From positions 1 through 36,657 of the forward strand of contig CAIXGY010000233.1 in assembly GCA_903919035.1 (NCBI GenBank): a stretch of DNA of 36,657 bases, given 5' to 3'. Positions 11,802-26,343 of this stretch are shown here, piece after piece (within the stretch, counting starts at the first letter, position 1; every line of letters starts with the position of its first letter). Source of the stretch: an uncultured Planctomycetaceae bacterium (GTDB lineage Bacteria > Planctomycetota > Planctomycetia > Pirellulales > UBA1268). The position numbers and the translations under genes are program-made. The notes beneath the pieces were generated by a model. The model made no database searches and was not told the DNA's origin. It saw nothing but the letters and a program-made list of their open reading frames with translations.

Positions 11802-14800
11802 ATGAATCCGCTCCTCGTGCCGCCGCCGGTCGCCCCGGTTTCAGGCAGCGTCGCGCCCCCCGCATCGCTCGTCGAACTGCTCGTGCGGCGTCTCGACGAG
11901 AGCCCCGGCGCGGATGCGATCGCCACCGCCGACGGCGACGTGCGCCGTTGGACCTGGGCCGATGTCGCCGCCGCAGCCTCGACGCTGGCCGAGGGACTCT
12001 CGGCCGCCGGCATCGGACGCGGCGCGCGGGTCGCGCACGTGGGGCCGCACGGCCCCGACTGGATCGTCGTCGATCTGGCGTGCCTCCTCGCCGGGGTCGA
12101 GCACGCCGCGCTGCACGCGGATGCCGCGGTCGCCGAACAGGAGTGGTCGCTCGCCTGGCTCGCCCCGCGGGCGGTGATCCGCAGCGGCGGCGCGGCCGCG
12201 TCCGGCGAACCGCACTCGATCGTCATCGAAACCGGCCGTGCGAGCGGACGCGCGGCGGGGCGGTGCGACGGTCTCGAAGGAGCGCGCTGGCGGGCACTCG
12301 CGGCCGACCTGCCCCGCCTCCGGGCATCGCTCGATCGCGCCACGGCCGACTGCGATCCCGATGCCGCCTGCACGGTCCTGCTCTCGTCCGGCACGACGGG
12401 TCATCCGCGCGGGTTCCTGCATTCGCAGCGGGCGCTTGCCGCCAACGCCTGGGCCGCGAGCGAGGTCTTCCTGTCGGAGCCGCGCGACGTGCGGCTGGCA
12501 TGGCTGCCGGCGAGCCACGGCATGGCCCGCGTCGGTGATCTCTACACGGCGCTGGTGCGGGGCGGCTGCCTCAACGTGGTGCGCGAGCGGCCGCGGGTGC
12601 TCGATGCCTGCCGCGTGCTGCCCCCGACCGTGATCCTCGGCGTGCCCGCATTCTTCGAGCGGATCGAGCGCGGCGTGCGATCCGGTCGCATTCCCGACCT
12701 CGCGGCCGCCCTGGGTGGCCGCGTGAGAGTCTGCGTGTCGGGGGGCGCGCCGCTGCGGCGGCGGACGGTCGAATGCTTTGCGGCCGCGGGCGTGCCGCTC
12801 GTCGAGGGGTATGGCCTGGCCGAGGCCGGTCCGGTCGTGGCCGTGTCGAATCCCCGCATTGCGAGGCCCGGAACGGTGGGCCCGCCGCTGCCCGGCGTGG
12901 ACGTGCGGATCGACGACCGGCCAGCGTCGCATGGCCAGGTGCTCGTGCGGACGCCGAGTCGGGCGGTTGCCGTGCTCCACCCTCAGGAATCTGGCGGCGC
13001 GCGGGTCGAGCGGGTCGATGCAGATGCGGCATGGCTCGAGACGGGCGACGTGGGAGAGATCGACGCGGAAGGTCACCTGCGGATCACCGGTCGGCTCCGG
13101 GACACGCTCGTGCTGTCCACCGGCGTGAAACTCCCGCCGGCCGTGGTCGAGCGGGCTCTCGCCGAAGACGAGGCGGTGGCGCAGGTGTGCGTGGTGGGTG
13201 ATGCCGCGGCATGGCCGGTGGCGCTCGTGGTGCCGGAGCCCGACGTCGTGCGGGCGGCCGTGCGGCGGCTGGGGGTGCGGGTGGTGTCGCGGCGAGGGGC
13301 GCTGCGGCATCCGCGGGTGCTTGCGTGGCTCGGACGGCGGTTGGCCCGGCGGCAGGCCGGGCTGCCGCGCGAGTGGCGAGTCCGTCGCGCCTTCCTCGTC
13401 GGTCGGCCGTTCGATGCCGGCCACGGCGAGGCCACCGAGTCGCTCAAGGTGCGTCGCGACCGCGTGGCCGCCAACTTCGCGTTCCAGATCGTCGCAGCGA
13501 CGGAACCGGTGCCGCCCCGGTGGGTGGCGGTACTCCCGGTCCCAGACGCGGCGGTGACGCGGGTGGCGAGCCCCGCCGCGCCCTGGCTGGCGGGGGCCGT
13601 GTGGCGAGGGCACGACGGCGGATTCGAGGTAGCAGCCGAACTGGCCGCACGGCCGTCGCGGGAGGCCGTGACCGGGGGCGTGAACCGGGCGATTGCAGAG
13701 ATCGCGCGCCTTCGCGCCGACGACGCGCTCTACGATCCCGCCCCTGGCCAGCCCGCGCCGGCGGCGCCTCTGGCCGATGCGCCCGCACCGCCGACGGGAA
13801 CATTCTCCGCTGCGGCCGAGGCGGCACTCGCGCGGGCCGGGCTGTGGGGCTTGGCCGTTCCCGAGGCCCATGGAGGGTCGGGCGCCGGCATGCTCGATCT
13901 CGCGCGGGCGATCAGCCGGCTCGCGGCCGACTGCCCGACGGCCGCCGGCATGCTCGCGGTGCACTCGACGATCGGCGCCGTGTCCGCGGTGGCAACATTC
14001 GGCTCGGCGGATCAGCGCGGCCGGCATCTGCCCGGCCTCGCGGCCGGCGCGCCGCTCTCGATCTTCGGCGCGACCGAGCCCGGGGCGGGCTGCGACCTCG
14101 GGGCGATTCGCGCGGTGCTGGAGCGGCAGGACGGCGGGCTCGTTCTGACGGGCACCAAGATGTTTATCACCAACGCCGTTCATGGACGGCTGGTGAAGGT
14201 GCTCGCGCTCCTTGAAGGGAAGCCCGCCGTGGCGCTCGTGCGGCTGCCGTCGGCCGATGGGCCGACGTTCCGACTTCGCCGCTACGCCCTCCACCCGCTC
14301 AAACATGCCCACAATGCCGCGCTCGAGTTCACGCGGTTTCCGGTGGACGAGGCCGATCTGCTCGCGGCGCCGGGCGATGATGCCATGAAAATCGTGTGGC
14401 ACGGCCTCAACCGGGGTCGCGTGACGCTCGCGGCCCAGGCCGCCGGCACGCTGCGGATCCTCCTCGCGCAGGCGCGGAGCCACGCACTCGCCCGCCACAC
14501 CTGGGGGCGGCCGATCGCGGATCGCGAGCTGATCCGCGGCCGACTGGCGCGGATCGCTGCGGCGACCGTCGCCTGCGACGCGGTCGCCGCGTGGGCCGCT
14601 GCAGCGATCGACGCCGGCGGCACGGGTGAACTGGAGGCGATCGTCGCCAAGACCGTGGCCAGCGGTTGCGTGCGCGACGCGGCACTCGACGCGCTGGGCG
14701 TGCATGGTGGTCGGGCATTCCTCGTCGGTCATCCGCTGGGCGACTCACTCCACGATCACCTCGCCGTCGGTGTCTACGAGGGCGAGAGCGACCTGCTGGG

Positions 14801-15303: not shown

Positions 15304-15431
15304 CTTGCGGCACGCGGGGCGCAAGTGCGGTAGGATCCGCATCGCACGATGCGATGCGAGTCGATCGTGGCAACCCTTGGCGTTGCCACCGATCGACCGA
15401 GTCGAAAAAGGCTAGGGAGGGCTTTTTCGAC
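15304..15431 (+). terminator. Run of four hairpins between the fusion gene and tRNA-Val
   Basis: Four consecutive inverted repeats occupy the spacer. CTTGCG/CGCAAG is at 15304-15325. GCATCGC/GCGATGC with a 5-nt loop is at 15339-15357. A 14-bp stem with one bulge (TCGATCGTGGCAAC pairing with 15382-15396, 7-nt loop) is at 15361-15396. GTCGAAAAAG/CTTTTTCGAC, 10 bp with an 11-nt loop, is at 15401-15431. The last has a T5 run inside its 3' arm rather than after it. They probably terminate the 3.5-kb gene upstream. They could instead be a structured leader or processing region for the tRNA. Confidence 0.5.
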
Positions 15432-15441
15432 GGTATAGAAA

Positions 15442-15515
15442 GGGCGGCTAGCTCAATTGGTCAGAGCACCTCGTTTACACCGAGGGGGTTGGGGGTTCGA
15501 GTCCCTCGCCGCCCA
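15442..15515 (+). tRNA. tRNA-Val (anticodon TAC)
   Basis: The acceptor stem GGGCGGC/GCCGCCC is perfect, with A as discriminator and no encoded CCA. The anticodon stem CCTCG/CGAGG holds the loop TTTACAC, giving anticodon TAC. GGTTCGAGTCC is the T-arm and AGCTCAATTGGTCAGAGC the D-arm. Length is 74 nt. Confidence 0.96.
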
Positions 15516-16298: not shown

Positions 16299-16372
16299 GA
16301 TTCGTCCCAGCCGTCGGCGGATTCATCCCTAGATGTGCTGGATTCGTCCCTGCCTGAGCCCGATTCATCACA
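16299..16372. repeat. 21-bp-period tandem repeat with core GATTCRTC
   Basis: The octamer GATTCGTC or GATTCATC starts at 16299, 16320, 16341 and 16362, exactly 21 bp apart each time (two helical turns). The 13 bases between cores are poorly conserved, apart from a shared C/T start. The strict spacing with degenerate filler suggests bound sites on one face of the DNA, or the relic of a repetitive coding segment (read on the minus strand it gives DES every seven residues). Confidence 0.6.
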
Positions 16373-16507: not shown

Positions 16508-18460
16508 ATGCGTCGCCATTCGTGTGCTCCTGCCGTCCCCGCGTCGCAATTTCGGTGGACCCTCGGGGGGGTGCTCGCCGGGCTGCTTGTCGTTGCGGGC
16601 CTGCCTGCCGATCTTCGCGCTGACACGATTCTCAATAGCGGCACGACGACGGTCAGCAGCGGCACGGACTTCGGCTCGAATCTCTACGTCGGAACGACCG
16701 GTATCGCCACGCTTGAAGTGATCGCTGGCGGATATGCAATAAACACGACCGGCTATCTCGGCTCCAACGCCGGTGGTGTCGGCACGGCCACGGTGTCGAG
16801 TGGCACGTGGGCCAGTAGCGGCTATCTCTTCGTCGGCAACAGCGGCAGCGGCACGCTGACCGTGAACGGCGGCAGTGTCACGAACACGACCGGCTATCTC
16901 GGCTCCAACGCCGGTGGTGTCGGCACGGCCACGGTGTCGAGTGGCACGTGGGCCAACAGCGGCTATCTCTACGTCGGCAACAGTGGCACCGGCACGCTCA
17001 ACGTGACTGGCGGCAGCGTCACCAACTATTTTGGCTATGTCGGCTACGACGCCGGCAGCGTCGGCTCAGCCACGGTGTCGAGCGGCACGTGGGCCAACAA
17101 TAGCAGCAATCTCCACGTAGGCTGGCAGGGCACCGGCACGCTCAATGTGAACGGCGGCAGCGTCACCAACACGGAGGGCTATCTCGGCTTTTTCGGTGGC
17201 AGCGTCGGCACGGCCAACGTGTCGAGCGGAGTGTGGGCCAATGGAAGCGGACTCTACGTCGGCAACAGTGGCACCGGCACGCTCAACGTGACTGGCGGCT
17301 ATGTCGGCAACACGTCTGGCCTTCTCGGCAATTTCTCCGACGGTGTCGGCACCGCCACAGTATCGAGTGGCACGTGGGCCAACAGCTTCTATCTCTACGT
17401 CGCCAACTACGGCAACGGCACGCTGAATGTGAGCGGCGGCAGCGTTACCAACAACACCGGCTATCTCGGCTACAACGACGGCAGTGTCGGCACGGCCACG
17501 GTGTCGAGCGGCACGTGGGCCAACAGTGGCAATCTCACCGTCGGCTCTAGCGGCACCGGCACGCTCGCCATGTCGGGCGGCCTCGTGACCGTTGGCGGCA
17601 CGCTCTCAAGGGGTGGTAACGGCACGATCAATCTGAATTCTGGCGGCACGCTCCAGATCGGCGTCGGTGGTACGACCGGCGTGCTTGGCGTGGACGCTCT
17701 CACGAACAACGGCACGCTCATCTTCAACCGCTCCGATGCGTCGACCTACTCGGGGGTAACCAGCGGCACGGGCGCGGTCACGAAGCAAGGCGCCGGCACC
17801 CTCACGCTCGACGGTGCCAACTCATACACGGGCGTCACCACGATATCCGGCGGGGTGCTGGCCCTTTCTGGATCGGGCTCAATCGGTACCGGCGGCCTGA
17901 ACATCGGCACCACGGCCAGCCCCGGCGTGTTTGACCTCGCCGCCCTCATGTCGGGCACGTATTTCCTGCCCGCGACCGGAGATCTCGCCGGCGTGGGCAC
18001 GCTCTCCGGCGACGGTAAGACGCTCGCCGTGCTCGGTTCGTTCATGCCCGGCAACAGCCCCGGCACGGTGACGGTCGGCACCGGATTCACGCTCGACCTG
18101 GCGAACTCGGGCACGAGCGTGTTCCAAATCACGAGCCCGCTCTATACCCCGGGCACGTTCGACCTCGTGAACGGCGCCGGCAGCGTGGTCTTCGGTGGGA
18201 TTCTCAGCCTCGACTTCAGCGGTGGCTCGTACTCCGCGGGCACGAACGTCCTGCAGCTCTTCGCCAACAGCGGCGGCTTCGCGGGGAATTTTAGTTCCGT
18301 GGCCTGGAGTGGCCTCGCGGACGGCCAGTCAGCGAGTTTTGACGCCAGCACTGGATACATCTCCATCATGGGTGTCCCCGAACCCTCCACCTACGCCATG
18401 GCCCTCGCGGGGATAGCCTGCGGCGGCTACTCGATGTGGCGGAGGCGGAAGCGGTCCTGA
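16508..18460 (+). CDS. PEP-CTERM-sorted surface protein with 47-residue beta repeats
   Basis: A 650-residue exported protein. Residues 1-38 are a signal peptide (Arg-rich start, GGVLAGLLVVAGLPA, cleavage near LRADT). Six repeats of 47-48 residues follow (nt 16751-17600) with the pattern GYLG...GxVGTATVSSGTWANSGxLYVGNSGTGTLNVxGGSVTN, given in parts: VGTATVSSGTWA and GTGTLNV. They predict a right-handed beta-helix. Around residue 420-470 an autotransporter-associated strand repeat is seen (GAVTKQGAGTLTLDGANSYTG). The C-terminus is a classic PEP-CTERM signal: VPEPSTYAM, a hydrophobic stretch, then WRRRKRS. An exosortase encoded elsewhere would cut it and place it at the cell surface or release it. 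Apart from one Cys in each sorting signal the protein is Cys-free. Role unknown; adhesion or matrix is a guess. Confidence 0.88.
   Translation: MRRHSCAPAVPASQFRWTLGGVLAGLLVVAGLPADLRADTILNSGTTTVSSGTDFGSNLYVGTTGIATLEVIAGGYAINTTGYLGSNAGGVGTATVSSGTWASSGYLFVGNSGSGTLTVNGGSVTNTTGYLGSNAGGVGTATVSSGTWANSGYLYVGNSGTGTLNVTGGSVTNYFGYVGYDAGSVGSATVSSGTWANNSSNLHVGWQGTGTLNVNGGSVTNTEGYLGFFGGSVGTANVSSGVWANGSGLYVGNSGTGTLNVTGGYVGNTSGLLGNFSDGVGTATVSSGTWANSFYLYVANYGNGTLNVSGGSVTNNTGYLGYNDGSVGTATVSSGTWANSGNLTVGSSGTGTLAMSGGLVTVGGTLSRGGNGTINLNSGGTLQIGVGGTTGVLGVDALTNNGTLIFNRSDASTYSGVTSGTGAVTKQGAGTLTLDGANSYTGVTTISGGVLALSGSGSIGTGGLNIGTTASPGVFDLAALMSGTYFLPATGDLAGVGTLSGDGKTLAVLGSFMPGNSPGTVTVGTGFTLDLANSGTSVFQITSPLYTPGTFDLVNGAGSVVFGGILSLDFSGGSYSAGTNVLQLFANSGGFAGNFSSVAWSGLADGQSASFDASTGYISIMGVPEPSTYAMALAGIACGGYSMWRRRKRS
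16751..17600 (+). repeat. Six tandem ~141-bp coding repeats
   Basis: Units start at about 16751, 16892, 17033, 17177, 17318 and 17459. Units 1 and 2 are identical over at least the first 64 bases and also share the bases just before them, which points to a recent duplication or gene conversion. The others have diverged. Unit 3 is one codon longer. Confidence 0.85.
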
Positions 18461-18519: not shown

Positions 18520-18936
18520 ATGCATATTCAGCCGTCTGAAAACGCCCCGCTGATTCGCACGGATTTCTCGTGCCCGGAGGCATGGCAGAAAATCGTTGCG
18601 GCCGTGAGCAATCCTGCTGACCCATTTCTCTTCACCATGCAGATCGTTGACGACCGCACGTATGACCGTGCGACCGTCGAGCAGTTGGTGGCCGCGCTCC
18701 CTGGGGGTCACCCGCACGCATGCCTGGTGGTCGCCGACAGCACCTCGATGTCGCTGACGGATCATCCTTTGCTGGTCGTCGATCTAGTGGAAGAGCGTGG
18801 CCGTCGATTTCGTGCCATCGCTGCCGAGATTGCCGCGATCGACAACAATCTTTCGATCGCGAACATGGGGTTTGGCGAGTTTGCGAACGCCGTGGACGAG
18901 AGCGGCGTGTTTCGTGGATTTGACGAACCTCGATAG
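18520..18936 (+). CDS. DUF6924-like small protein
   Basis: A 138-residue soluble acidic protein. It opens with LIRTDFSCPEAWQKIVAAV, has FTMQIVDDRTYD and HACLVVADSTSM, LLVVDL, and ends with NNLSIANMGFGEFANAVDES and GVFRGF. The order and wording match my memory of DUF6924 proteins of actinobacteria and planctomycetes, whose role is unknown; the near-invariant end NNLSIANM...F..FA..VDE.GVFRGF is present. The start at 18520 was chosen because homology begins there; an in-frame ATG at 18436 would add 28 basic, unlike residues. No clear Shine-Dalgarno sequence was seen. It lies 59 bp after the PEP-CTERM gene on the same strand, so co-transcription is possible. Confidence 0.7.
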   Translation: MHIQPSENAPLIRTDFSCPEAWQKIVAAVSNPADPFLFTMQIVDDRTYDRATVEQLVAALPGGHPHACLVVADSTSMSLTDHPLLVVDLVEERGRRFRAIAAEIAAIDNNLSIANMGFGEFANAVDESGVFRGFDEPR

Positions 18937-19207
18937 ACCCACAGCCCGCATGGGGTGGCCCCCACTCGGTTTCTGTACCGGTGCTCATGAGAGAGTTGGG
19001 GAACAGTCCGCGTGGTGTGTCGGAGGGAGGGGCGCAGCCTCGAACGTGAGACAACCGCCCGGCCGCCTGCCCGAGCGCCCGTTGCGTATCGCCGGGTGAC
19101 GCTGTCGCGCGGATTGCGAAAGACCCCTGTTCGGCAAAACTCCCCCGGGGCAGCTGGGCCCCCGCGGAGAGAGGGGTTCCTGGGCGGGTGCCGCGTCGAT
19201 TTTGCGG

Positions 19208-19272
19208 CCGAAACATAGGCAAAAAATTTTTTGTGTCCGGTTTTTGTCCGGAATCTCGCCTATGTCTTTCGG
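19208..19272. promoter_or_regulatory. Compound palindromic element: outer inverted repeat enclosing A6T6 and twin GTCCGG
   Basis: The outer arms ACATAGGC (19213-19220) and GCCTATGT (19258-19265) are perfect complements. They extend outward as CCGAA/TTCGG after a 2-nt bulge, giving 13 pairs. Inside are the palindrome AAAAAATTTTTT (19221-19232) and two GTCCGG copies at 19235 and 19246, 11 bp apart. TCCGG (19236-19240) can also pair with CCGGA (19248-19252). Such layering fits an operator for a dimeric regulator, a REP/MITE-like element, or a folded RNA leader. Confidence 0.6.
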
Positions 19273-19300
19273 AGGGCCTACCCCCAAGGCGTCCGATTCC

Positions 19301-19321
19301 GGGTCGGCTTCGTGCCGACCC
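19301..19321. other. Hairpin upstream of the giant surface-protein gene
   Basis: GGGTCGGC and GCCGACCC pair as an 8-bp stem with a 5-nt loop (TTCGT). It lies 140 bp before the ATG at 19462, downstream of the palindromic element. It has no T-tract, so an attenuator or leader hairpin is as likely as a terminator. Confidence 0.4.
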
Positions 19322-19461
19322 CGGTGCCAGAGGGGGCGGGCCGCCGTTCGTGTGCCGGGCAAACGACACCCAGTCCGGCGCCGAACCAGCGGATCACGTC
19401 ATGGATGAAGAGCGGAAGTCGCGAACGTCATGAGCGTGGCCCTGTGCGTGGAGACCTTTCG

Positions 19462-22400
19462 ATGCATTCAGAACACCTCTTCTCTGGATTGATCCGTCAT
19501 CAGCCCGGAGTGCGCAGCCGGCGGCACGCCCGTCGCGCGGCCTCGCGGCGATCACGTCACGCAGCCAACCGTCTTGCTGCCGCCGAGCGACTCGAGAAGC
19601 GCCGCGTGTTGGCGGTCGTTCTCGATATGGTCGTCGTCGGCGACGCGGGAAACCACGCCGACTCCAGGCTCGTCGGAAACTACGGTGCGGTCGCGGATCG
19701 TTACCTAATCGGAAAGTACGAAGTCACGATCGGGCAGTATGCGGAGTTTCTCAACGCCGTCGCCAAGAGCGATTCATACGGTCTCTATCACCCGAGCATG
19801 GCAACCGACCTCAATAGTGCGGGTATTCAGCGGTCAGGCTCGTCGGGTTCGTACACCTACGCCGTGATGAGCAACGCAGGAAACAGCATCAATCGCCCGA
19901 TCACATATGTGAACTGGTTTGACGTAGCACGGTTTGCCAACTGGATGCACAACGGACAGGGCCTGGGCAGTACCGAGACCGGCGCGTACACACTCGTTGG
20001 CGGGCAGACGAGCGGCATCGCGCCGGCGAAGAACGTCGGCGCACGGTTCTACATCCCCACCCTCAACGAATGGTACAAGGCGGCGTTTTACAAAGGCGGC
20101 GGCACGACCGCCGGGTATTGGACGCATGCCACGCAAAGCGATTCAACCCCAGGCAATGCCATCGGTTCAACGCCCAATCAGGCGAACTTCTACGAGGGCG
20201 ACTATGCGGTGACCCAGTCGCCGGACGTCTTCTCAAACCAGAACTATCTCACCGATGTGGGGGCGTTTACGAGCAGCCCCAGCGCCTACGGCACGTTTGA
20301 TCAGGCAGGCAATGTCTGGGAGTGGAATGATCTCACGGGGGCAGCAGGGTCGGATCGCGGGCTGCACGGCGGCACCTGGAAGTTTCCGGCATCATTCGGG
20401 GATTACAACTCGTTCAGCACCATGAGCGGAGCGGATGTCGGGACTGCCGGTCATCAAGACAACATCGGGTTTCGCCTGGCCGGTGCGGCAGTCGTGCCTG
20501 GGGCTCCCGTGGCCGTCACGGGTGCACCTGGAAACGCCTCGGTGAACCTCTCATGGACCGCCCCGGCGTCGAACGGCGCGGTGCCGATCACCGACTACGT
20601 GGTCGAGTACAAGACCACCGCCGCCGCGACGTGGACGACGCTGAACGACGGCGTTTCGGCAACGCCTGCGGCGGTCGTGACCGGTCTTGTCAACGGGACG
20701 ACCTACATGTTCCGGGTATCGGCAGTCAACATCGTCGGGTCCGGGGCTCCGACGAATGCGACTGCCAACGTGACCCCGCGGACCGTGCCTGGGCAGCCGA
20801 CCTTTGGGTCCGGCACTCCGGGTAACGGGCAGGTGTCGCTCACTTGGACTGCCCCGGCATCGAACGGCGGCGCGGCAATCACCGACTACGTGGTCGAGTA
20901 CAAGGCCAGTTCGGCCACGTCGTGGAGCACATTCGCCGATGGGGTCTCGACGGCCTTGACGGCGATCGTGACGGGCCTGACCAACGGCACAAGTTACGTG
21001 TTCCGGGTGTCGGCCAGGAACGAGGCTGGCGCGGGCGCTCCCACTGCGGCGTCCTCCAGCGTGACGCCGCGAACGGCTCCCGGCCGACCCTGGCTGTTGT
21101 CCGGCTCCCCAGGCGACAGGCAGGTGTCGCTCACCTGGCGAGCCCCCGATTCAAACGGCGGAAGTGCGATCACCGACTACGTGGTGGAATACAAGACGAG
21201 CTCGGCCTCCACATGGTTGACGTTCAACGATGGCGTCTCGACGGCCACGTCGGCGACGGTGACCGGCCTCGTGAATGGCGTGAGTTACGTCTTCCGGGTC
21301 TCTGCAAAAAACATCGCCGGCACCGGCAGTCCCAACGACGCTTCCTCCAGCACCTTCGACAGCTTGACGCCGCGAACGGTGCCTGGAATGCCGAGGATCT
21401 CCTCCGTTACTGCCGGCGACGAGCGGGTGACGCTCTCATGGGCGGCCCCGACGAGCAACGGTGGGGCGGAGATCGACTCCTACGTGGTCGAATACAAGAC
21501 CGTCGCTGCGACTGCGTGGACCACGTTCACCACCTACGCCAGTGCCTTCTCGAGGACGGAGACCGTCACGGGCCTCGACAACGGGGAAAGCTACTCGTTC
21601 CGAGTGTCGGCACGGAATGAGGCTGGCACCGGGTTGCCATTCGAGGCATCGGCCGTAACGCTCGCTGCCGCACTCGACCCGCCGACGGGCGTGGTCGCCA
21701 CGGCACAACGCGGGTACGCGATCGTCTCCTGGACGGCTCCGGCCTCGGATGGCGGCTCGTCGATCAGCTCCTATGTGCTGCAGTCGAGCGTTGATGGCGG
21801 CTCAACCTGGTCGTCGGGCCTCACGACCGCGGGCGGCGTGACATCCGCACGTGTGGACTCGCTCTACGACGGCGCGACGTACCTGTTCCGCGTCAAGGCG
21901 AAGAACTCGCTGGGCACGAGTGTCCCGTCGACGCCATCGGCGGCGGTGACGCTACCCCGGCAGCCCGGCTGGCCGGTGCAGGTCGGCGCCACTGGCGAAG
22001 ACGGCGTTGCGAGCCTGGTGACCGTCGGCGAGACGACGATCGTCACCGGCTCGTTCTCGGGCGCCGTGCAGTTCGGCGGAACGACGCTCACGAGTGCGGG
22101 TGGTTCGGAGGACGTGTTCGTCGCCAAGCTCAACCCCGATGGATCCTACGCGTGGGCCGTGCAGGCGGGCGGCACCGGGTCGGATCGGGGCACGAAGATC
22201 GCGGCGCTGACCGATGGCACGGTGGCCGTCATCGGCTCCTTCACGACCTCGGCCGCGTTCGGCGGCACCACGCTCACGTCGTCCGGAACCGATTCGTTCA
22301 TCGCGAAGATCAGCCTCGCGGACGGCACGTTCGCGTGGGCGCGGCGAACGGGTGATGCCGGCGCGCCGTCGGCCAACGGCATCGACGCGCTCGCCGACGG

Positions 22401-25400
22401 CGCCATGATCGTCGCCGGCGCCTACTCCGGGCTGGCGACGTTCGGCGGGACGACACTCTCCACCACTGGCACGAGCGACGCCTTCGTTGCCAAACTCGAC
22501 GCCGCCGGCTCCTACGTCTGGACGCTGCGTGCAGGGGCGTTGAGTGTGCCCTTCGATCCCCTGAATCCCCCCTCGCCAAACCTGGCCGAAGTCTCGCCCG
22601 GCGGGATCGCAGCTCTCCCCGACGGCTCGGCCTATGTGGCGGGCTGGTTCACAGGCGACGTGACCTTCGGCGACACAACGTTGCAAACCTCCCCGGGGCT
22701 GCCGAATTATCGGTCGATATTCGTTGCGAAGGTCACACAGACCGGAACGTTTGACTGGGCACGGCAGGCGGTTCAATCCTCGTCGTCGTCTTCGACATCG
22801 CGAAACGAGGTGTCGGACGTGGCCGTACTGGGGACTGACGTCCTCGTCGCGGGCACGTTTGAAGGGCAGTTGGACATCGCCGACACGTCCCTGTCGGGTT
22901 CGGGCACGGAAGTGTTTCTCGCCCAATGGTCGGGCGACGGCTCTCCCGTGGGTGCCTTGAGAGTCGGCGGCAGCGGTGACGATTTTGGTGGCAGCATCTC
23001 GGACGGATTCCTGACGGGCGTTTTCGATACGTCTGCGACGGTCCCGACACTGGGGCCATGGGGCCAATACGAGATGACGAATCTTTACGGCTCATCGCAG
23101 CAGGCATTCGTTGCAAAGGTTTTTTCGACCGATCTCGGTGTATTCTCGTGGGCAACGGTGACGCCCGGAAGCCGATTCGGCGGATACGGCTCGCCGCCGG
23201 ATGTCGCGGTGCTCGCGGGAGATCCCGTGATCGCCGGGCAGTTCTCCAGCGCGGCCGTGTTCGGCGCCACGCAACTCTCGACCGCCGGCGGCGGTGACGG
23301 ATTCGTCGCCCGCATGTACTCGGCGCCGTCGAACACAAATTACCCGGCGTGGTCATACGGCGGCTTTGACGCCGTCCCAACCGACGTGAGCGGCGTTCCA
23401 GGTAACGGACAGGTCGGCCTCACATGGCTGGCCACCTCCGGCTCCGCGGACTATCTCGTCGAATACTCGAGCGACGGCGGCCAGACCTGGACCACGTTCA
23501 ACGACGGCGTGTCTTCGGCGTCATCCACTACCGTGACGGGCCTCGCCAACGGCACGGCATACCGATTCCGAGTCTCCGCCATCGATGCGGTCGGCGTCGG
23601 CAGGCCCTCCCAACTCTCGGCAGCCATGACGCCCACGCTCGTCCGGTCGGCGGGCTGGCCGAAGCAGGCGGTCGGGAACTCGATCGACTCGCTCTCCGTC
23701 TTCGGCGACGGCTCGGTGGCGGTGACGGGCTTGTTCACCGGGAGCGGCGTTTTCGGCAGCACGACGGTCACCGGCACGAATCCGCAGGTGAATGGCGGTA
23801 TGTACGCGGCCCGTCTGGCCGCCGATGGAGCGTTCTCGTGGGCGCGGGAAACGCCGGGTGGTATCGCCGCGGCGGCGACGGGCGGTGCCACGCTCGTGGC
23901 GGGCACGAAGCTCATGGAGTATCCGGCCACCTACAACTCCATGTATCAGACCTGGCAGCCCCCCTTCTCCGCCACGCACATGGTCGTGAGGCAAGTGAAG
24001 GCCGACGGCTCCACCGGCTGGCAGTACAGCGAGGGGGCGACGCCGTGGTTCACGGGCATGTATCCGATGCCCGGCTACGGATCCGTGGTTCAGCCGCAAT
24101 CGATGACGACCCTGCCCGACGGCTCCGTCGTCGTGGCGGGCATGCGCAACGACTACTACTCGAATTCGATGAGCATGCAGAACGACCCCATATTCTTCAT
24201 TCAGAAGATCAATGCGGACGGCTCCGCCGGATGGAGGCGGAGCACCACACCGCCCTCCATGTCGTCGGGCTACGGATACTACGACGCGGTCAAGAGTCTG
24301 GCGGCCTTCTCCGACGGCGCCACGCTCCTGGCTGGTACTTTTGGAGACCAACTGCCGTTCGGCTCGAGCCCGCCTTCTCCTTATCCGTCGCCGACATCGG
24401 GCCGCGCGTTCGTGACGAAGCTCGCCGCGGACGGCACCGTGGCCTGGTCGCGGCAACTCGGTGAGTTCGACCCGATGATGCCCTATGGCAACGACGTCGA
24501 CATCGCCGGCATGACCACGCTGCCCGATGGTTCGGCCGTCGTCGTCGGCGGGTTCAGCGGCACGGTGACGTTCGGCGAGACCACCCTGATCGCCGCCGAT
24601 TTCTCGGATGGCTTCATCGCGAAGCTCGCCGCCGACGGGTCGCTGGTCTGGGTGCAGACGCTCCCGTTCAGGGTGTCGGGCATCACCACGCTCACCGACG
24701 GCTCCGTGCTCGCCATCGGCTCGTTCACCGACGAGATCGTGCTCGGCCAGCAGGTTCTCACGAGCGCCGGTGACAGCGACGCATTCTTGTTGAAGATCTC
24801 CCCGAGCGGCGGCTACACCTGGTCCCGCCGGATCGGCGGGACCGGCTCGGATGGGGCCGGTCGCATCGCGGCGCTCCCCGACGGCTCGGCCATCGTGACG
24901 GGTAGCTTCAGCGGCACGGTCGCTTTCGGGTCGGACTCGCTCACGAGCCAGCGCGGCACCGATACGTTCATCGCCAAGATCGGATCAGACGGACAGTTCA
25001 TCACGGGAAACGCCGCGGCGACCGTCGCCACGTCGGGAGCGCTCTCCGCGCTGTCGACCCTTCTCGGCGAGGCCTCCACGGCGGGCACCGTGGCCATCAC
25101 GGGCACGAGCCTCACCGCCCCGATCGTGGCGACGGCGCCGGCCGGCTTCGAGGTGTCGAGCGACGGCACCACCTTCGGCACCACCGCCACCTTCACCCCC
25201 ATCGGCGGCGCCGTCTCCGGCACGCTCTCCGTCCGGATCGCCGCCGCCACCGCCGTCGGCACCTATTCCGGCAGCGTCTCGCTCGCCTCCTCCGGCGCGA
25301 CCACCGCCACCGTCGCCGTGCCCGCGAGCACCGTCACAGATGAGCTCGTCTTCGACGTCGCCTCCGGCCAGAGCGTCACCCATTCGGCCGCCCGCACCGG

Positions 25401-26343
25401 CGCCATCAAGTTCGTCAAGCGCGGCCTCGGCACGCTCGTCCTCGACGCCCTCGGCACCCACACCGGCCTGACCTCCGTCGAGGGGGGCACCCTCGTCGTG
25501 GCCCACGGCCAGGCTCTCGCCGCGAGCGCCGTCCGCGTCAACTCGGGCGCGACGCTCAAGGTGAACTCCGGTGTGACCATGCAGTCACCGAGCGTCACGA
25601 TCGCCGGAGGCACGCTCGACGGCACGGGAGCCACGCTGCTGGTGAACGCCACGACGGGCATCGGCACCTTCGCGATCACGTCGGGCGCCGTCACAGGCTC
25701 TCCGCGGCTCACGGTCAGCGGCAACGGACTCGTCACGCTGCCGACCGACCGGCGGCAGACGGTTGCGCTCACGGCCCTCACGGTCGATCATGCCACCGGC
25801 GGCAAACTCGACGTCGGCAAGGGACGGATCGACGTCGCCGCGGGGGGCATCACGGCGGCGAATCTGCGGGCGGCGCTCGTCGCCGGCCGCACGACCGCCG
25901 GCACGTTCACGGGCACCACCGGGATCATCACCACCGGAGGCAAGGCGTCGGCGTTGATGACGAATCCGGCGGTGGGCTATCGGCTGTTGTCGAGCGGCGC
26001 GGCGATCGTGGCCTGGGCGGCCTACGGCGACACGAATCTCGATGGCCAGGTGAACTTCTCGGACATCTCCCTGATCAACACGGGCACGAAGTACGGGGCG
26101 GGCGCGTCCACTGGCGCGGTGTGGTCGCAGGGCGACTTCAACTACTCGAACGGCGTCAACTTCACCGACATCAATCTGCTCAACACCGCCGCGCTGTACG
26201 GTTCCGGCTCCTACCTGCCGACGACGCCGGGCAGCGTGGTTCAGGCGACGGCGGAGCCGACGTCGAGCTCTTTCGTCATCTCTCAGGACACCTGGATCGC
26301 CCTCGCGATCGAAGCCGAGCATCAGCAAACGCGAAAACGCTGA
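19462..26343 (+). CDS. Giant multidomain secreted protein: FGE-like, six FN3, two beta-propeller-like blocks, dockerin-like C-terminus
   Basis: A 2,293-residue protein. A very basic N-terminus leads to AERLEKRRVLAV (residues ~41-52), a variant of the planctomycete LExRR/LEPR export motif. Residues ~55-343 are a formylglycine-generating-enzyme/SUMF1-type domain (IGKYEVTIGQYAEFLNAV, NVWEWNDL, GGTW, NIGFRLAG). Five FN3 domains span ~346-833 and a sixth ~1300-1393. Two blocks of GSFSGTVTFGxTTL...DxFIAKLxADGSxxW repeats (~834-1293 and ~1394-1850) suggest SBBP-type propellers. An Ig-like stretch (~1850-1960) and an autotransporter strand repeat (~1960-2065) follow. Near 2186-2255 there are two EF-hand loops (DTNLDGQVNFSD, DFNYSNGVNFTD), dockerin type I-like. 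No cysteine occurs anywhere, so the FGE domain cannot be catalytic in the known way. Start: ATG with TGGAG 8 nt upstream. An earlier ATG at 19405 is possible. Confidence 0.85.
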   Translation: MHSEHLFSGLIRHQPGVRSRRHARRAASRRSRHAANRLAAAERLEKRRVLAVVLDMVVVGDAGNHADSRLVGNYGAVADRYLIGKYEVTIGQYAEFLNAVAKSDSYGLYHPSMATDLNSAGIQRSGSSGSYTYAVMSNAGNSINRPITYVNWFDVARFANWMHNGQGLGSTETGAYTLVGGQTSGIAPAKNVGARFYIPTLNEWYKAAFYKGGGTTAGYWTHATQSDSTPGNAIGSTPNQANFYEGDYAVTQSPDVFSNQNYLTDVGAFTSSPSAYGTFDQAGNVWEWNDLTGAAGSDRGLHGGTWKFPASFGDYNSFSTMSGADVGTAGHQDNIGFRLAGAAVVPGAPVAVTGAPGNASVNLSWTAPASNGAVPITDYVVEYKTTAAATWTTLNDGVSATPAAVVTGLVNGTTYMFRVSAVNIVGSGAPTNATANVTPRTVPGQPTFGSGTPGNGQVSLTWTAPASNGGAAITDYVVEYKASSATSWSTFADGVSTALTAIVTGLTNGTSYVFRVSARNEAGAGAPTAASSSVTPRTAPGRPWLLSGSPGDRQVSLTWRAPDSNGGSAITDYVVEYKTSSASTWLTFNDGVSTATSATVTGLVNGVSYVFRVSAKNIAGTGSPNDASSSTFDSLTPRTVPGMPRISSVTAGDERVTLSWAAPTSNGGAEIDSYVVEYKTVAATAWTTFTTYASAFSRTETVTGLDNGESYSFRVSARNEAGTGLPFEASAVTLAAALDPPTGVVATAQRGYAIVSWTAPASDGGSSISSYVLQSSVDGGSTWSSGLTTAGGVTSARVDSLYDGATYLFRVKAKNSLGTSVPSTPSAAVTLPRQPGWPVQVGATGEDGVASLVTVGETTIVTGSFSGAVQFGGTTLTSAGGSEDVFVAKLNPDGSYAWAVQAGGTGSDRGTKIAALTDGTVAVIGSFTTSAAFGGTTLTSSGTDSFIAKISLADGTFAWARRTGDAGAPSANGIDALADGAMIVAGAYSGLATFGGTTLSTTGTSDAFVAKLDAAGSYVWTLRAGALSVPFDPLNPPSPNLAEVSPGGIAALPDGSAYVAGWFTGDVTFGDTTLQTSPGLPNYRSIFVAKVTQTGTFDWARQAVQSSSSSSTSRNEVSDVAVLGTDVLVAGTFEGQLDIADTSLSGSGTEVFLAQWSGDGSPVGALRVGGSGDDFGGSISDGFLTGVFDTSATVPTLGPWGQYEMTNLYGSSQQAFVAKVFSTDLGVFSWATVTPGSRFGGYGSPPDVAVLAGDPVIAGQFSSAAVFGATQLSTAGGGDGFVARMYSAPSNTNYPAWSYGGFDAVPTDVSGVPGNGQVGLTWLATSGSADYLVEYSSDGGQTWTTFNDGVSSASSTTVTGLANGTAYRFRVSAIDAVGVGRPSQLSAAMTPTLVRSAGWPKQAVGNSIDSLSVFGDGSVAVTGLFTGSGVFGSTTVTGTNPQVNGGMYAARLAADGAFSWARETPGGIAAAATGGATLVAGTKLMEYPATYNSMYQTWQPPFSATHMVVRQVKADGSTGWQYSEGATPWFTGMYPMPGYGSVVQPQSMTTLPDGSVVVAGMRNDYYSNSMSMQNDPIFFIQKINADGSAGWRRSTTPPSMSSGYGYYDAVKSLAAFSDGATLLAGTFGDQLPFGSSPPSPYPSPTSGRAFVTKLAADGTVAWSRQLGEFDPMMPYGNDVDIAGMTTLPDGSAVVVGGFSGTVTFGETTLIAADFSDGFIAKLAADGSLVWVQTLPFRVSGITTLTDGSVLAIGSFTDEIVLGQQVLTSAGDSDAFLLKISPSGGYTWSRRIGGTGSDGAGRIAALPDGSAIVTGSFSGTVAFGSDSLTSQRGTDTFIAKIGSDGQFITGNAAATVATSGALSALSTLLGEASTAGTVAITGTSLTAPIVATAPAGFEVSSDGTTFGTTATFTPIGGAVSGTLSVRIAAATAVGTYSGSVSLASSGATTATVAVPASTVTDELVFDVASGQSVTHSAARTGAIKFVKRGLGTLVLDALGTHTGLTSVEGGTLVVAHGQALAASAVRVNSGATLKVNSGVTMQSPSVTIAGGTLDGTGATLLVNATTGIGTFAITSGAVTGSPRLTVSGNGLVTLPTDRRQTVALTALTVDHATGGKLDVGKGRIDVAAGGITAANLRAALVAGRTTAGTFTGTTGIITTGGKASALMTNPAVGYRLLSSGAAIVAWAAYGDTNLDGQVNFSDISLINTGTKYGAGASTGAVWSQGDFNYSNGVNFTDINLLNTAALYGSGSYLPTTPGSVVQATAEPTSSSFVISQDTWIALAIEAEHQQTRKR
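20497..21960 (+). repeat. Five tandem fibronectin type III coding repeats
   Basis: Each unit is about 290-300 bp and reads VSLTWTAPASNGG..ITDYVVEYK, then TVTGLxNGxxYxFRVSA. Units 1-3 are close relatives at both protein and DNA level (for example the ITDYVVEYK codons near 20587, 20878 and 21169), while units 4 and 5 have drifted. A sixth, isolated unit lies at about 23364-23640 between the two propeller-like blocks. Confidence 0.8.

Follow-up and report, generated by a model that had tools for sequence, protein, structure and literature searches.

The giant gene and the symmetries upstream of it

The window (the whole 36,657-nucleotide stretch analysed here, contig CAIXGY010000233.1 of an uncultured Planctomycetaceae bacterium) contains on its plus strand, at 19462–26343, a giant gene for a surface protein with an FGE/SUMF1 domain, six fn3 repeats, a PATR repeat, and a dockerin-like C-terminal region. 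Its likely start is the ATG at 19462, with GGAG 8 nt upstream. No PEP-CTERM tail was found on the protein, which ends in ...ALAIEAEHQQTRKR and gives no match to PF07589. About 18 other places in the genome (L253–L271) encode the same dockerin-like region, several of them in open frames of 1000–3400 aa and two in tandem on contig C156; together with the giant gene, these loci make up a large family of giant surface proteins. The gene upstream, encoding a DUF6924 protein (PF21962; 18436–18936, plus strand), ends 271 bp before the element considered here. Elsewhere in the window, two adjacent hairpins of 15 and 13 pairs (15360–15434) stand just 5' of a tRNA gene (15442–15515) and are possibly terminators of the preceding gene.

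The element is delimited by an outer inverted repeat at 19208–19272, present in one copy and without assigned strand, in which the left arm CCGAAACATAGGC (19208–19220) is complementary to GCCTATGT-CT-TTCGG (19258–19272), giving 13 Watson-Crick pairs arranged as 8+5 around a 2-nt bulge. The arms enclose an A6T6 tract (AAAAAATTTTTT, 19221–19232) and two GTCCGG copies starting at 19235 and 19246, spaced 11 bp, which are able to pair with each other through TCCGG/CCGGA. The arms, the A6T6 tract, and the paired GTCCGG copies named in the initial annotation are thus all present in the sequence, although its tally of four kinds of symmetry is itself post hoc.

Taken singly, the outer repeat stands out only weakly. 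In a 73.7-kb sample of the genome's intergenic DNA, delimited by calling genes from codon usage, inverted repeats with 13 or more pairs have a frequency of 4.3 per 10 kb, whereas dinucleotide shuffles give 0.7 per 10 kb; the repeat at 19208–19272 ranks in the weakest listed class of them. Within the 694 kb examined, A6T6 occurs here only and GTCCGG-N5-GTCCGG occurs twice, once on each strand. The 60-nt GC minimum at the element is 38%, placing it fifth in AT-richness among 182 intergenic regions. We conclude from this rank, and from the commonness of repeats of at least 13 pairs, that the site is a marked AT-rich island, whereas the palindrome alone is unexceptional.

A diverged block shared with a second giant gene

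On contig C156 (locus L212), a second copy, of the form GCGGCCGAAA-N12/13-AAATTTTTTGYGTYCGGTTTT, precedes a further giant gene, and both downstream genes encode giants with FGE and fn3 domains. It was overlooked by BLAST and came to light in a listing of AT-rich islands, where the C156 upstream region reads TGCGGCCGAAATACGCATGTCGAAATTTTTTGCGTTCGGTTTTCGGTCCGATTCCGCC, resembling TGCGGCCGAAACATAGGCAAAAAATTTTTTGTGTCCGGTTTTTGTCCGGAATCTCGCC in the window. The common block covers 19180–19265 (plus strand) at an identity of 0.70–0.78 in 40-column windows, dropping to about 0.45–0.62 in the flanks. Across 19199–19260, 50 of 62 bases (81%) are identical to the C156 core (L212:8801–8867, minus strand), compared to 66% DNA identity between the paralogous FGE coding segments; the upstream core is therefore the better-kept part. 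Local alignment of the two upstream regions scored 48 under strict and 112 under permissive scoring, where the best of 2000 shuffles reached 43 and 88, respectively; these values overstate the rarity of a resemblance picked out by eye among 182 intergenic islands.

Conservation is highest at 19224–19251 (plus strand), comprising AAATTTTTTGYGTYCGGTTTT and the second GTCC(GG), that is, an A/T tract and GTYCGG direct repeats for which a contact role can be suggested. The parts kept between the copies are GCGGCCGAAA, AAATTTTTTG, GTYCGGTTTT, and the second GTCC half-site, with the GTYCGG half-sites 11 bp apart in the window and 12 bp apart in C156. The right-hand part, including a candidate -10 hexamer discussed below, aligns poorly. 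In the outer stem, 6 of the 13 pairs are mispaired in C156 and a further 3 fall in a gap, with none compensated. Because the stem has been lost without compensatory change, the 13-pair palindrome probably lies outside the conserved design as a chance by-product, and the element illustrates that even conspicuous symmetry need not belong to the conserved core it surrounds. With two copies only, conservation by function is not cleanly separable from shared ancestry or gene conversion.

Searches for further relatives covered the genome itself, a draft assembly of 338 contigs, and other genomes at one per species. The exact element was found once in its own genome (by BLAST and pattern search) and nowhere else among 297 genomes sampled from the order, in which the arm pattern ACATAGGC-N28-46-GCCTATGT likewise had no second place. 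Over the same 297 genomes, TGTCCGGTTTTTGTCCGG matched exactly in the window only, and at up to 2 mismatches its count was near that of the control. The direct-repeat pattern at up to 3 mismatches gave 645 matches, compared to 565 for the reversed control, which is no useful enrichment. BLAST with 301-bp and 71-bp queries against its own genome and 60 others returned matches at chance level only; since the C156 block, used as a query, fails to recover the window copy, absence by BLAST is weak evidence and a profile search is the better test, and it is mainly on the latter that absence elsewhere rests.

A sequence-only profile built from the two copies found just two places in the genome, the window and C156, and gave nothing above chance in 39 relatives and no further place at other FGE or C-terminal-family loci of the genus. 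Weak matches in two genomes (G037, E 0.027 per genome; G048, E 0.14) correspond to the chance expectation for 40 genomes, and a match at the end of contig C194 was also rejected as chance. Among all sequence fetched, AAATTTTTTGYGTYCGGTTTT with 0 mismatches occurs only at the window and C156 places. The upstream regions of FGE homologues in relatives have no common element. A search for DUF6924 homologues gave none in the 21 other congeners covered and only one positive genome among the rest; with this neighbour missing from the congeners, no orthologous intergenic region could be aligned. The initial annotation had regarded a single occurrence without conservation in sister genomes as fatal to its proposal; the palindrome does behave in this way, whereas the core recurs once, in a paralogous copy.

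A putative promoter region and competing explanations

We suggest, with a probability of roughly 0.6, that the element is the AT-rich core of a promoter or upstream-activating region of the giant gene starting at 19462, inherited by duplication together with its C156 sister. The gene duplication would have carried the block of ~85 bp (19180–19265) into both loci. An activator and RNA polymerase may bind here, through the A/T tract and through the pair of GTYCGG half-sites spaced by roughly a helical turn, immediately 5' of a possible -10 hexamer; one candidate for the latter, TATGTC (19261–19266, plus strand), fits the TANNN[TC] form found at a fixed place in putative promoters of PEP-CTERM genes of the genus (see below). 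Transcription from there would yield a leader of ~190 nt, and within this presumed leader lies a hairpin, GGGTCGGC-TTCGT-GCCGACCC (19301–19321, plus strand), which has no T-run and hence is not a canonical terminator.

Consistent with a promoter, the element occupies an AT-rich island 5' of a gene and shares conserved sequence with the upstream region of a homologue. AT-richness is expected of promoter DNA in a GC-rich genome. A scan for the sigma-70 -35/-10 consensus, which is blind to other promoter types, found no site in 18900–19500, and its absence is not decisive for planctomycetes. A regulatory target, as proposed earlier, is still the most plausible interpretation, since the core is common to the region upstream of the only other giant FGE-fn3 gene found; the outer palindrome has not been kept there.

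The entire 65-bp palindrome could instead be bound specifically by a regulator, dimeric or tetrameric, that serves the giant gene alone. Its perfect 8+5-bp arms around an AT-rich core in intergenic DNA would suit such an operator, and other AT-rich islands of the genome also hold palindromes. One of these, the near-perfect TTTTGGCGAAAT-T-ATTTCGCCAAAA (L222, near 13935–13960; G000:C77), lies in AT-rich DNA between divergent genes and is a good candidate operator. For the element itself we regard this as unlikely: the arms are lost in the paralogous C156 block and have no other copy across the 297 genomes, and the genome's intergenic DNA commonly contains inverted repeats this long.

It is similarly doubtful, in our judgement, that the element has no function and is AT-rich intergenic DNA with a coincidental inverted repeat, its likeness to C156 being residual ancestry of duplicated genes. 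The palindrome does exist in one copy, the related blocks number just two, and sister species have no such element; against this, the core is more alike than both the adjoining upstream DNA and the paralogous FGE coding segment.

It is considerably less probable that the long stem forms a structured RNA, be it an attenuator in the sense leader or an antisense transcript. The antisense fold is stable (z -4.6; none of 200 shuffles equally stable; about the top 1% of intergenic windows), a property that the promoter account leaves unexplained. The sense-strand fold, however, is ordinary (z -1.9), the C156 paralog has a different fold shape with an unremarkable antisense strand (z -0.75), and there is no antisense gene or terminator able to carry such a transcript. 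Between the two copies, the outer stem shows no covariation, a test of limited power with just two sequences, and an Rfam search matched two tRNAs only in the window and nothing at the element. The broken stem, the antisense fold not kept in C156, and the negative Rfam result argue for a promoter block acting at the DNA level and against a conserved RNA; a folded RNA was among the initial suggestions.

A dispersed or mobile element (REP, MITE, IS end, or integron attC site) can practically be dismissed in spite of the palindromic outline and intergenic position, since the genome holds no second palindromic copy and no plasmid matched the element. REP/BIME or MITE families, another suggestion made initially, are likewise imperfect palindromes in intergenic DNA, but they occur in multiple copies, whereas here there is one palindrome and a single diverged core copy before a paralogous gene. 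The arm pattern was matched in 85 viral contigs, but neither GTCCGG nor A6T6 lies between the arms in any of them. No direct repeat immediately flanks 19208–19272 (seed 6, minimum length 8, so that a shorter target-site duplication would escape). Integron-like attC sites do exist elsewhere in the genome: in the first ~6100 positions of L207 (G000:C19:1–20000), attC-like inverted repeats (AAC...CGATCAGCGGCTCGCGACC ... TCGCGAGTCCGCTGCATCGCG..GTT) follow one another at intervals of several hundred bp and probably represent an array of integron gene cassettes in a planctomycete genome. The arms of the element lack the AAC...GTT ends of these sites, and the right arm GCCTATGTCTTTC has no GTT.

Repeat arrays upstream of PEP-CTERM genes

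While comparing the regions upstream of FGE genes, we noticed arrays of 2–5 direct repeats of GATTCGTCCC with a 21-bp period. One lies in the window itself, at 16299–16371 (plus strand), upstream of a PATR/PEP-CTERM gene (16571–18460); further ones were found in the same genome (L210, L211, L213, L355–L358) and in congeners (L325–L353). The pattern of paired GATTCGTCCC repeats is present in 11 of 22 genomes of the genus (its own included) and in none of the 18 sampled from other genera, and its reversed control has 0 occurrences. Nine arrays were found in 868 kb of the genome, a figure that is not a density estimate as these 868 kb include stretches fetched for holding arrays; shuffled patterns gave 0 in 19 of 20 trials. 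Seven of the nine, the one in the window among them, directly precede genes with PEP-CTERM tails. Since PEP-CTERM matches number 48 in the genome, these arrays account for only a fraction of them.

Across 30 distinct arrays of the genus, the spacing is exactly 21 bp in 60 of 76 cases, and 18 arrays stand before PEP-CTERM genes, with 6 of the 30 truncated where a contig or locus ends. In 13 of the 30, a TANNN[TC] hexamer starts exactly 49 bases past the first base of the last repeat, compared to at most 2 at any other offset. On these sequence patterns, the arrays look like activator sites on one face of the DNA, belonging to a PEP-CTERM regulon specific to the genus. Together with the -10-like hexamer at its fixed distance, they offer a clear and testable regulatory architecture for planctomycete PEP-CTERM proteins, a more interesting result than the element at 19208–19272, which by itself is most likely an ordinary promoter region.

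The element, like these arrays, places short, helically phased direct repeats ahead of genes encoding FGE or other surface proteins. It differs in period (11–12 bp compared to 21 bp), in half-site (GTYCGG compared to GATTCGTCCC), and in preceding giant genes without a PEP-CTERM tail, whereas the arrays precede PEP-CTERM genes. The giant gene has no array of its own: the best approximation to GATTCGTCCC in 18940–19460 is a lone word with 2 mismatches. A broad regulon of SUMF1/PEP-CTERM-type genes served by the element, as once envisaged, can be rejected, with just two core copies found, and its role appears to be filled by the GATTCGTCCC arrays. More speculatively, and with rather low confidence, a dedicated regulator might read the block GCGGCCGAAA...AAATTTTTTGYGTYCGGTTTTNG(G)TCCG and jointly control both giant FGE-fn3 proteins, apart from the genus-wide control of PEP-CTERM genes through GATTCGTCCC; if so, the bacterium would run two parallel surface-protein programmes.

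In the literature searched, Proteobacteria are the only group for which PEP-CTERM genes are described as sharing upstream control. The cis-regulatory site reported there, and in Proteobacteria only, combines motif 1 with a sigma-54 motif 2 and involves PrsK/PrsR (Haft et al. 2006, PMC1569441). The element is comparable in that it too would act as a regulatory sequence for one surface-protein gene from a long intergenic stretch, but it occurs only twice and stands before a giant gene without a PEP-CTERM tail. In two congeners, the upstream regions at L087 and L088 carry another kind of repeat, a palindromic GGGGCGAATCGCTCCA-like motif repeated before FGE genes.
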